Positions 11,620-19,156 of a stretch of DNA of 29,707 nt are shown here, piece by piece. The notes under the pieces are model-generated. The model searched no databases and was not told the origin of the DNA. It saw nothing but the letters and a program-made list of their open reading frames with translations. The stretch covers positions 1 to 29,707 of the IMG/VR virus record IMGVR_UViG_3300042870_000438, one strand, 5' to 3'. This DNA comes from a virus. The position numbers were made by a program, and so were the translations under genes. Position 1 is the first letter of the stretch. Each line of letters begins with the position of its first letter.

Positions 11620-11812
11620 TGCACAACGCGCCCGCGAATATCGAGATCGCAAACGCGGTAGACCGCCTAGAGACTTGCAGCCTTGCGGAACGTACGCCGC
11701 AGCGGTCCGGCACCGACGCAAAGCCGAACCGGTCTGCGATCTATGTCGTACCGTCTTGGCTGAACGCGCTAGAACGTATTACCGCACCACTACTGGCCGT
11801 GACGAATTGTAA
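11606..11812 (+). CDS. Small basic Cys protein (CGTYAA...RHRR family)
   Basis: This 68-aa protein has the pattern 'PCGTYAAAVRHRRKAEPVCDLCRTVLAERARTYYR'. That pattern recurs in many actinophages as a short basic protein with a CGT..A..RHRR motif and a CxxC pair, possibly binding zinc and nucleic acid. The N-terminus is basic (MAKNDAQRAREYRDRKRGRPP) and looks like a DNA-binding tail. An overlapping frame at 11616-11876 has no such pattern and is rejected. The family is known to me only as hypothetical. Confidence 0.7.
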   Translation: MAKNDAQRAREYRDRKRGRPPRDLQPCGTYAAAVRHRRKAEPVCDLCRTVLAERARTYYRTTTGRDEL

Positions 11813-13921: not shown

Positions 13922-14142
13922 CGGTTTCGCAATGGCAAGCGCATAACCGGCAGCTTGTCCGGTTGCCGGATGGCCGTTTAGGGCGTATGCAGTATGTAAC
14001 ACCTTCGTCGCTTGTCGCTACGGTCGTGGTCGGCGGACGCCGTATCCGGCTACCGTATTTTGATCTAGAACTAATCGAGGCGGGTGAGTATGAAACGTTC
14101 GGGACCGTTACGCAGGAACAAACCGCTAGCGAAAATGTCTAA
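13900..14142 (+). CDS. Small basic beta-rich protein (80 aa), unknown
   Basis: It starts with GTG at 13900, overlapping the ERF gene by 22 bases. The sequence (MAERKRLTVSQWQAHNRQLVRLPDGRLGRM...) has a basic N-terminus and then a probable small beta barrel: 'VRLPDGRLGRMQYVTPSSLVATVVVGGRRIRLPYFDLELIE'. This could be an SH3-like nucleic acid-binding fold. The end overlaps the HNH gene by about 53 bases, which is long, so the true end of function may lie earlier. No family is recognised. Confidence 0.6.
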   Translation: MAERKRLTVSQWQAHNRQLVRLPDGRLGRMQYVTPSSLVATVVVGGRRIRLPYFDLELIEAGEYETFGTVTQEQTASENV

Positions 14143-16413: not shown

Positions 16414-16622
16414 CACGCGACGAACTAACCCGGCTACGTAACGTATCCATAGCACCTAACGCGATCGACCCTATTTGGCTTAGGCAAGCGGTACGCGAGA
16501 TAGACGAACTGCGCGCAGCTCTCGACGGCGTATGTCGGCTTTATGAGCAGTCGCAGAAGATCGTTAACGAACGCGGTGCGGAGCTTTCCCGTATGCGCGC
16601 AGAAGCTCAGGAGCGTGCCTAG
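16410..16622 (+). CDS. Small coiled-coil protein (70 aa)
   Basis: It starts at ATG 16410 after AAAAGGGGAAAG. The sequence (MTRDELTRLRNVSIAPNAID...) is mostly helical, with heptads in 'LRQAVREIDELRAALDGVCR' and 'NERGAELSRMRAEAQERA'. It lies directly before the replication initiator and shares one base with it. A partner role in replication is possible by position only. Confidence 0.7.
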   Translation: MTRDELTRLRNVSIAPNAIDPIWLRQAVREIDELRAALDGVCRLYEQSQKIVNERGAELSRMRAEAQERA

Positions 16623-17332
16623 TGTGGGCAAAAGTGGACGACGGGTTTTGGTGTCATCCGAAAGTGATCGGGCTACCCCTAGCCGCATCGGGTTTATGGG
16701 TGCGCGCGTTGTCGTGGTCGTGCGCTCAGCGTCTCGACCTAGTACCGGAATCGTTCGTACGCATGGTCGGCGGCACGACCGAAGACGCTGCCGCGCTAGT
16801 GGACGCCGGGTTATGGATCGCAACCGACGACGGGTACCAAATCCATAACTGGACGGAATACCAGACGCTCACAACTTCGGAACGCAGAGCCGAAGCCGGG
16901 CGTAAAGGCGGCATAGTTTCCGGTCAGAAACGAAGCAAAGCCGAAGCAAAGCCGAAGCAAACCGCAAGCAAAAACGTTTTGCTAACGAAGCAAAGCTACG
17001 AAGCAGGTACCCATCCCATCCCGACCCGACCCGTAAAACCATCTTCGGAACCGTCCGCAAACGAAACCGTAACCGCAGCAATCGAAGAGGCAGTACGTCA
17101 GCGGCAAGCAACTACGACCGGGATACGAAACCCGGAAGCATGGCGACGCACCGTACGCGAACAAATGACCAGCGACGAAGACGCGATAGCGAAAGCAACG
17201 CGACTCCTAGAGCAATACCCGACGGCGAACGTTTCACAAATCGCCGCGGCGCTAAACGGCTCTACAGTCGCCCTACGACTGCTTAAGCGGGAAAGCCTAC
17301 CGAACGAACCCGCAAGCCCGCAGAACGCTTAA
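16622..17332 (+). CDS. Replication initiator, DnaD/helix-turn-helix type
   Basis: This 236-aa protein starts with GTG. The N-terminal domain (1-~90) reads 'MWAKVDDGFWCHPKVIGLPL', 'GLWVRALSWSCAQ', 'PESFVRMVGG', 'DAAALVDAGLWIATDDGYQIHNWTEYQ', the known winged-helix start of phage replication/DnaD-like proteins. A low-complexity Lys/Ala/Ser linker (about 95-150) is encoded by the iteron array described separately. The C-terminal helical part (about 155-236) may bind the host helicase or loader. In lambda the O protein also carries the origin inside its gene. Here the same layout is likely. There is no polymerase or helicase in the genome, so host replication enzymes are needed. Confidence 0.85.
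   Translation: MWAKVDDGFWCHPKVIGLPLAASGLWVRALSWSCAQRLDLVPESFVRMVGGTTEDAAALVDAGLWIATDDGYQIHNWTEYQTLTTSERRAEAGRKGGIVSGQKRSKAEAKPKQTASKNVLLTKQSYEAGTHPIPTRPVKPSSEPSANETVTAAIEEAVRQRQATTTGIRNPEAWRRTVREQMTSDEDAIAKATRLLEQYPTANVSQIAAALNGSTVALRLLKRESLPNEPASPQNA
16931..17007. repeat. Iteron array (candidate replication origin)
   Basis: CGAAGCAAAGC occurs at 16931-16941 and 16942-16952, with CGAAGCAAACC (one change) at 16953-16963, a degenerate copy at 16964-16974, an exact copy at 16986-16996 and a partial copy, CGAAGCAGG, at 16999-17007. The period is 11 bp, about one DNA turn. Because 11 is not a multiple of three, the copies are read in different frames, so the repeat is kept at the DNA level and not for the protein. 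A dyad, AGCAAAA (16967-16973) with TTTTGCT (16977-16983), sits in the array. Confidence 0.75.
17010..17032 (-). other. G-quadruplex motif next to the iterons
   Basis: On the minus strand there are five GGG tracts with uniform two-base loops. On the + strand they are five CCC runs at 17010-17012, 17015-17017, 17020-17022, 17025-17027 and 17030-17032. Such a spacing is a textbook G-quadruplex former. It begins three bases after the last iteron, so it is probably part of the origin. Confidence 0.7.
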
Positions 17333-17375
17333 CTAACGAACCTACGCCACTACAGACGACCGGAGACCCTAAGCA

Positions 17376-17975
17376 ATGGCAATACCGCGCGACACCCACG
17401 AAACCGCGACCACCGCGCTAACGATCCTACGCTTAATCCAAACCCGCGACGAATACGGCGGCACCGTACTCGACCGCATACGCGACGCCCGCAACGGCCA
17501 ACCGTCCGCAATCCGCTACGACTCCGACAAAATCACCGCAACCGGAACCAGCGACCCAACCGCCGCCGCCGCGCTCAGACCCGACAACGCCGCACGCGAC
17601 CAGCACGACCTAGAACAGAACCTAGCTAAAGCCCGGCAACACTTAGACCGCGCCCTAGCCATCGTAAACACCTACACGCCGCGACCACCTAACGCCCTAG
17701 AACGTCAGCGCATGGCCGACGCTAACGAACCGCATTGCGAGAGCTGCGCACGAATCGAAGTAGCAAACGGAATACCACGGTGGGAACCGCCACTAACGCA
17801 AGAGCGCAGTACCGTAGGCGACCGCCTACCCGAACCGTTATGGCTCTGCCGATGGTGCTACGACCATGTAGCGCAGACCGGGACGAAACCGAACACCGAC
17901 GAACTAGACCAGCATCACAGCGGCGCGCGCGTCCGTTGCCCGCACCCGCGAACCGAACCGATGTTCCCCGAATGA
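17376..17975 (+). CDS. Phage protein with zinc-binding C-terminal domain
   Basis: This 199-aa protein. The N-terminal half (1-~110) is helical with 'LILRLIQT..EYGGTVLDRIRDA'-like content. The C-terminal part has CxxC (EPHCESCARIEV, about 119-122) and 'PEPLWLCRWCYDHVAQTGTKPN' (about 151-172), then 'GARVRCPHPR'. Two CxxC pairs indicate a zinc ribbon. Similar 'LCRWCYDFV' proteins are frequent in actinophages, but I know no function. C-ending codons are much more frequent than in the late genes. It ends in an ATGA junction with the methyltransferase. Confidence 0.7.
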   Translation: MAIPRDTHETATTALTILRLIQTRDEYGGTVLDRIRDARNGQPSAIRYDSDKITATGTSDPTAAAALRPDNAARDQHDLEQNLAKARQHLDRALAIVNTYTPRPPNALERQRMADANEPHCESCARIEVANGIPRWEPPLTQERSTVGDRLPEPLWLCRWCYDHVAQTGTKPNTDELDQHHSGARVRCPHPRTEPMFPE

Positions 17976-19156
17976 CGGACGCACCGGTAGTAGACGTACG
18001 TAACGGCGACTGTCGCGAGCTGATCGCGGCTATGCCGAGCGAATCGGTAGACGCAATAGTTACGGACCCGCCTTACGAACTTGGGTTTATGGGTAAAGGT
18101 TGGGACGCGTCCGGCGTAGCTTACGACGTGAACCTATGGCGCGAATGTCTGCGCGTACTTAAACCGGGCGGGCATTTACTCGCTTTCGGCGGTACTCGCA
18201 CTTATCACCGTATGGCGTGCGCGATTGAAGACGCCGGTTTCGAAATTCGCGACTCGATTCAATGGTTGTATGGCTCAGGCTTCCCGAAGTCGCATGATGT
18301 GAGCAAGGGGATTGATAAGGCGGCCGGGGCTGAGCGTGAGGTAGTCGGCGTTAATCCGATGGTCAATGTGTATCGCAACCGTGGACCCTTCGACGCACTT
18401 GAGGAAGGGGACATCTACGAGAAATCACCGATAACCGCACCCGCTACCGACGCCGCTAAGCAATGGCAAGGCTGGGGGACGGCACTCAAGCCCGCCCACG
18501 AACCCATCGTCGTCGCCCGCAAACCGCTCATCGGCACCGTCGCCGCCAACGTGCAGCAACACGGCACCGGGGCGCTCAACATTGACGCCGCACGCATCGG
18601 TCGCGCCGAAGGCGACTCGTCCATAGCGGGCAACCGCACCGCCACGTTCGGAACTCAGGAAACAAAACCGGGCGGCGACGGTTCCGGGGGTTGGAAACAA
18701 AACGACGCTGGCCGCTGGCCCGCGAACGTCATCACCGACGGCAGTATCGACGCCGAATGGGTGCGCTACTTCTACGTCGCCAAACCGTCAAGACGCGAAC
18801 GCAACGCAGGACTCGAGCACCTAGACGAAGTCACTAAAGGAAGCAACTTTGGCAACAATGGCGCACGACCGCATACTTCGCCCGATTACAAGTACGAAGC
18901 CAACACACGAAACATACATCCAACCGTAAAACCGCTCGCCCTCATGCGCTATCTAGTGCGACTTGTCACGCCACCCGGCGGCACCGTCCTAGAACCGTTC
19001 GCAGGCTCAGGCACAACTTTAGCCGCCGCAGTATTAGAAGGCTTTAACGCGATCGGGTGCGAACTAACCGAAGACTACCTACCCATCATTGAAGGCCGCG
19101 TACAATGGGCGCAGCAAGAACGCGCAAACAAAACCGAAAGCCTATTCCCCGAATGA
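17972..19156 (+). CDS. DNA methyltransferase (N6-adenine/N4-cytosine, beta-type order)
   Basis: I chose ATG 17972 (394 aa) at the ATGA junction. An earlier start at 17735 would overlap the previous gene by 240 bases. Motif IV is TDPPYEL (31-37). Motif I FAGSGTT (343-349) is near the C-terminus with 'HPTVKPLALMRYLVRL' (316-331) before it. Catalytic motif first, SAM-binding motif last, is beta-class order. DPPY is most common in N6-adenine enzymes. A long middle part (about 100-300) is the target recognition region and has a distinct codon style. It may protect the phage from host restriction. No restriction enzyme partner is visible. Confidence 0.88.
   Translation: MTDAPVVDVRNGDCRELIAAMPSESVDAIVTDPPYELGFMGKGWDASGVAYDVNLWRECLRVLKPGGHLLAFGGTRTYHRMACAIEDAGFEIRDSIQWLYGSGFPKSHDVSKGIDKAAGAEREVVGVNPMVNVYRNRGPFDALEEGDIYEKSPITAPATDAAKQWQGWGTALKPAHEPIVVARKPLIGTVAANVQQHGTGALNIDAARIGRAEGDSSIAGNRTATFGTQETKPGGDGSGGWKQNDAGRWPANVITDGSIDAEWVRYFYVAKPSRRERNAGLEHLDEVTKGSNFGNNGARPHTSPDYKYEANTRNIHPTVKPLALMRYLVRLVTPPGGTVLEPFAGSGTTLAAAVLEGFNAIGCELTEDYLPIIEGRVQWAQQERANKTESLFPE

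Follow-up and report, generated by a model that had tools for sequence, protein, structure and literature searches.

Repeats with an 11-bp period inside a phage replication initiator gene as a likely intragenic origin

Replication origins that lie inside the gene of their own initiator are already known, the described cases being lambda O and the RepA_N plasmids. In phage lambda the iterons bound by the O initiator lie in the middle of its gene, where added iterons just lengthen the protein, and the four iterons (six in Stx phages) adjoin an AT-rich tract (PMC7466680). In pSK41 the N-terminal domain of Rep binds four boxes within the rep gene, and the linker can be dispensed with as a peptide; in RepA_N plasmids the linker is encoded by origin DNA, and the N-terminal domain and origin are exchangeable as one module, as in pPR9 (PMC5703833).

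The locus described here fits this kind. It lies in a stretch of 29,707 nucleotides from an IMG/VR virus record, hereafter the window, whose 105-bp terminal repeat was confirmed and agrees with the 29,602-bp circle of the original prediction. We consider it likely that the repeat array at 16931-17007, placed inside the initiator gene, forms the iteron part of the phage replication origin, where the initiator would bind; both the binding and the origin activity of the array are what we infer from the comparisons that follow. The features are:

16622 to 17332, plus strand: replication initiation protein gene (PHROG 2447), GTG start, 236 aa
16622 to 16867, plus strand: N-terminal winged-helix domain, aa 1-82 (AlphaFold2), presumed to bind the iterons
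16874 to 17056, plus strand: linker-coding DNA, aa 85-145, predicted disordered, carrying the iterons and the 5-bp tract
16931 to 16941, plus strand: iteron 1, CGAAGCAAAGC, exact copy
16942 to 16952, plus strand: iteron 2, CGAAGCAAAGC, exact copy
16953 to 16963, plus strand: iteron 3, CGAAGCAAACC, one change
16964 to 16974, plus strand: iteron 4, CGCAAGCAAAA, degenerate, in register
16967 to 16983, no strand assigned: dyad AGCAAAA-ACG-TTTTGCT, iteron 4 facing the inverted half-site
16978 to 16983, minus strand: inverted iteron half-site TTTGCT, within 16975-16985
16986 to 16996, plus strand: iteron 5, CGAAGCAAAGC, exact copy, 55 bp (5 x 11) from iteron 1
16997 to 17007, plus strand: iteron 6, TACGAAGCAGG, degenerate, 2 bp off the 11-bp grid
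17010 to 17033, plus strand: tract CCCAT CCCAT CCCGA CCCGA CCCG, reading HPIPTRP, 24 bp, candidate second origin element

Three exact copies of CGAAGCAAAGC occur in the window (starts 16931, 16942 and 16986), a fourth copy at 16953 differs from them by one base, and degenerate and inverted copies are interspersed. This composition of the array was as originally predicted, and the 7-bp dyad with a 3-base loop that had been proposed at 16967-16983 is real. With at most one mismatch, CGAAGCAAAGC is matched five times in the window against 0.66 expected, a count reached by 0 of 100 dinucleotide shuffles; the fifth of these matches is an isolated copy at 11714, outside the array. Among the tandem repeats of the window the array ranks first (score 68; runner-up 59). 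The folding stability of the whole array stretch was not unusual against shuffles (z -1.28), and a stable hairpin was dropped as a feature of the array for this reason.

In the window gene, and at the corresponding position of related genes, what is conserved in the repeats is the DNA and not the protein. The 120-bp segment that contains the array holds 62 pairs of repeated 6-mers, whereas shuffling of synonymous codons with protein and codon usage fixed left 7.9 on average (z 12.6); none of 300 shuffles reached the observed number. An alignment of the window with six close relatives at 93-96% protein identity (seven sequences) had no variable columns among the 46 of the repeat core versus eight among the 31 other array columns (Fisher p 3.7e-4); at third codon positions the corresponding counts were 0/16 in the core and 60/207 in the rest of the gene (p 0.007). 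Changes within the array hit all codon positions, so that variation tracks the repeat and not the codon, and the AGCAAA and TTTGCT of the dyad are invariant in all seven sequences despite changes in the spacer. The synonymous shuffles and invariant cores thus bear out the earlier proposal that the 11-bp repeat is maintained as DNA. A step of 11 bp is not divisible by three and shifts the frame from copy to copy; the word is therefore translated in all three frames, giving the hydrophilic disordered chain RSKAEAKPKQ. Such three-frame coding was considered as the cause of the word and rejected: 2.8% of all 11-mers give an equally hydrophilic open array, and coding constraint alone therefore does not select this one.

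The adjacent 5-bp tandem tract varies by whole units, an extra CCCGA unit replacing CCCAT in three close relatives. Tracts of 23-33 bp are present in nine of the eleven named homologs listed, with none in Jinkies or SF3; their units are CCCGA, CCCAA, CCCAT or CCCGT, arranged as perfect repeats directly behind the iterons and read in three frames.

The array starts about 310 bp into a gene whose product matches the PHROG 2447 'replication initiation protein' profile (E 2.1e-31) over residues 1-194, that is, the N-terminal domain and beyond. By tblastn this protein matched 342 actinophage records; a search of bacterial genomes with it gave no confirmed match, and a Pfam scan of the initiator returned no match, including neither RepA_N nor DUF6291. 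In the AlphaFold2 model the N-terminal domain (pLDDT about 67-89) consists of helices followed by a two-strand wing, the linker mostly has pLDDT below 50, and the C-terminus is helical and poorly predicted. Neighbouring genes in the window encode ERF, RusA-like, WhiB-like, DNA methylase and terminase proteins, the terminase genes lying 3 kb from the array; the window proteins that were scanned included no recognisable helicase or helicase loader. The host is presumably actinobacterial, judging by the WhiB gene and the actinophage homologs. Between 17376 and 19156 two long ORFs on the same strand overlap: one spans 17376-17975, the other is a methylase ORF with a TTG start, running from 17735. 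The methylase domain starts well inside the latter, whose true start is probably later.

Structural comparisons of the N-terminal domain were less specific. The model matched the RepA_N structures 4pql, 4pt7, 4pta and 5kbj, one RepA_N structure among the matches being DNA-bound, at middling Z scores of 6.6-7.1 (none reached 8), and unrelated winged helices score alike. The DnaD N-terminal fold 2vn2 gave E 0.47 and a TM-score by target of 0.52, again with many unrelated winged helices scoring alike. A profile of the actinophage N-terminal domain found no match among PDB sequences, and no RepA_N chain.

The window array is absent from all fifteen named actinophage loci examined; among these, the gene of Propionibacterium phage B22 is short and has one AAGCAAA at its end. 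In 12 of the 14 named full-length genes, repetition at the DNA level nevertheless peaks around gene position 300-430, in words other than that of the window; the exceptions are Jinkies, with weaker repetition, and Streptomyces phage SF3. Gordonia and Microbacterium phages, for example, have inverted and direct GTGAC, and Arthrobacter phages have CCGAAC. Another 22 IMG/VR genes, picked via the N-terminal domain only, gave linker z scores of at least 3.5 in 18 cases, with the N-terminal part mostly at z 0 to 2. Across 32 homologs with the 5-bp tracts masked, direct-repeat lags peak at 12 and 11 (z 11.4 and 7.5) and inverted-repeat lags at 18 and 6-8. Significant linker repetition was absent in a few homologs (SF3; L281, L287 and L292). 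The word GAAGCAAA itself occurs in the close group of the window and in some IMG/VR members, and in 0/14 of the named phages with a full-length gene. The original prediction had looked to homologous genes for the same 11-mer and had counted homologs without linker repeats as evidence against it; most homologs do repeat at the same place and with a period of about 11-12 bp, but mostly in a different word. A place and near-helical period that are kept while the word turns over are as expected if initiator and origin co-evolve, which suggests such co-evolution in this actinophage family. Open-licence papers, to which the literature search was limited, gave no description of such arrays for this family.

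An incidental match, L008, has the linker as the sole part in common with the window protein, and this linker-only similarity led to a scan of IMG/VR for the word that disregarded genes. Three GAAGCAAA at 11-bp steps were found in 60 stretches, about 51 of them in linkers of initiator-like genes with differing N-terminal domains, a class count made from sequence signatures and reading by eye that includes close duplicates. As controls, the G/C-swapped core GAACGAAA of the same composition gave eight stretches, none in initiators, and the reversed core AAACGAAG gave four, all belonging to a single different initiator family that carries an 11-bp repeat of its own, GGGCAAACGAA. At a spacing of 10 bp there were 32 stretches, nearly all in initiator linkers too; at 12 bp, which is in frame, 39 stretches mixed ordinary EAK protein repeats with initiator linkers. 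Some initiator matches lie within bacterial genome contigs, Oscillospiraceae, other Clostridia and Bacteroidales among them.

GGGCAAACGAA is the 11-bp linker repeat of a DnaD-like initiator family (L140-L143). Several further arrays were observed beside these. Apparently non-coding period-11 GAAGCAAA arrays lie upstream of a terminase small-subunit-like gene (L019:7787-7860, and the same in L038 and L046) and of a terminase large subunit gene (L026, about 14030-14080); these could be origins or packaging sites. Period-11 GAAGCAAA is also found near the C-terminus of similar archaeal ORFs that are unlike phage initiators (L163, L164), and in Paraburkholderia (L159, L161).

The biggest group among the scan stretches was DUF6291, a Pfam family of unknown function. 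In 59 distinct DUF6291 genes sampled by N-terminal patterns alone, with the linker disregarded, the linkers hold 911 five-base matches at lag 11 where synonymous shuffles predict 115 (z 38); lag 22 is similarly enriched (z 36), lag 10 shows none, and the N-terminal control region at lag 11 gives z 0.3. Lysine codon choice tracks the word: after serine AAA is used 71 times and AAG nine, before glutamine AAG 76 times and AAA 17, against a background of 770 AAA to 314 AAG. At least three AAGCAA occur in 37/41 genes without a GG motif at the linker start and in 0/18 with it, a split that is partly built in, the linker start itself being encoded by repeats; the genes with GG mostly carry AACCAAA, again at lag 11 (z 23). 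Behind the DUF6291 iterons stand 6-bp repeats of the AATGTA type (NVNVNV). The N-terminal model is all-helical and wingless, and matched none of the solved structures; hhalign profile comparison with the window N-terminal domain gave a probability of 0.3%, from shallow alignments that leave a distant common origin possible. DUF6291 is rare in the sampled genomes, and neither its name nor such arrays were met with in the open-licence papers that were searched. DUF6291 (L193-L272) appears to form a class of phage replication initiators whose iterons, of the AAGCAAA or AACCAAA type, are intragenic.

A broader reading, possible but put forward tentatively, is that one word, GAAGCAAA, repeated once per helical turn, serves as an intragenic origin for initiators without detectable N-terminal kinship in phages of Actinobacteria, Bacteroidetes and Firmicutes. 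The word would then either move as a module with the linker or be recognised by a shared element outside the N-terminal domain, and DUF6291 would be a large unrecognised initiator class.

The original prediction of a lambda-like origin is partly supported, in that DNA-conserved intragenic iterons lie in the disordered linker of a winged-helix initiator. An AT-rich tract of the lambda type is absent: AT content beside the array is 0.42-0.52, and the stretches of the window richest in AT (0.60-0.63) lie elsewhere. Cumulative GC skew turns at 16,816, near the 17 kb that had been forecast, but as a maximum, whereas an origin with a G-rich leading strand is expected at a minimum. The sign is thus opposite to that expected, and the placing of the main genes on one strand confounds the measure; GC skew decides nothing and was dropped as an origin test. 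The strongest strand asymmetry of the window is found at 17001-18000, right after the array (GC skew -0.20, AT skew +0.47; an A- and C-rich top strand).

If the array is the origin, the N-terminal winged-helix domain would bind the iteron copies, which would be presented on the same side of the DNA by their spacing of one helical turn, while the dyad supplies an inverted copy. Once bound, the complex would melt DNA nearby, possibly over the adjacent 5-bp tandem tract, the C-terminal part would recruit the host replicative helicase, and the encoded linker peptide would be a by-product. The missing AT-rich tract, and the position of the AT-richest stretches elsewhere in the window, would also suit an initiator site used chiefly for autoregulation or copy control, with replication starting elsewhere, and the iterons of iteron plasmids often have a control role too. 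An array about 310 bp inside the gene would be odd for an operator, however, and the best-studied intragenic arrays, in lambda O and pSK41 rep, are origins (PMC7466680, PMC5703833); we regard a chiefly regulatory site as unlikely.

Selection on the protein, by which a flexible linker rich in K, S and Q would have grown by slippage and the DNA word would have no role, is hardly plausible. The linker is indeed predicted to be disordered, and low-complexity linkers are common, but the synonymous shuffles, the frame-dependent lysine codons and a period that is not a multiple of three argue against this, invariance follows the 11-bp word rather than the codon, and the word recurs in sequence-unrelated initiators and in a few apparently non-coding arrays. 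Those last arrays, with their period-11 GAAGCAAA just upstream of terminase-like genes in L019, L038, L046 and L026, would instead favour a packaging or partition site lying in the initiator gene by chance. This is very improbable for the window, given the 3-kb distance of its terminase genes and the large majority of arrays that are in initiator linkers.

Origins are unmapped for most phages known only from metagenomes. If the array is an origin as proposed, origins could be read from the linker of the initiator gene through a 10-12 bp period that ignores codon frame, and DUF6291 would gain a role. The occurrence of fast-changing words at a fixed place, set against one word across unrelated initiators, would make initiator and origin co-evolution directly testable. 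As far as the open-licence literature was searched, the new elements are a period of 10-12 bp seen across phage initiators, rapid turnover of the word within one family, a word common to sequence-unrelated initiators and the short-unit tract behind the repeats.

Among known systems, the window resembles lambda O in having iterons in the middle of the initiator gene. It differs in having five to six copies of 11 bp spaced by one helical turn, in belonging to another initiator family, and in carrying a 5-bp tandem tract instead of an AT-rich one. With the RepA_N plasmids pSK41 and pSK1 it shares repeats placed centrally inside the initiator gene, and its N-terminal domain is predicted to be a winged helix, of middling similarity to theirs; there is no Pfam RepA_N match, the repeat word is another and the setting is a phage. 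The PHROG 2447 proteins, such as Gordonia phage EMoore gp50 and Microbacterium phage Dropshot gp42, are the window gene's own family: in most tested members repeats kept as DNA stand at this gene position, together with a CCCGA-type 5-bp tract, while the words of named members differ (GTGAC, GTTAC, CCGAAC, GGGAC). DUF6291 shares with the window GAAGCAAA, the 11-bp period, the site behind the N-terminal domain and a short-unit tandem tract next to it, and differs in an N-terminal domain predicted to be all-helical without a wing and in the AACCAAA of a subgroup.
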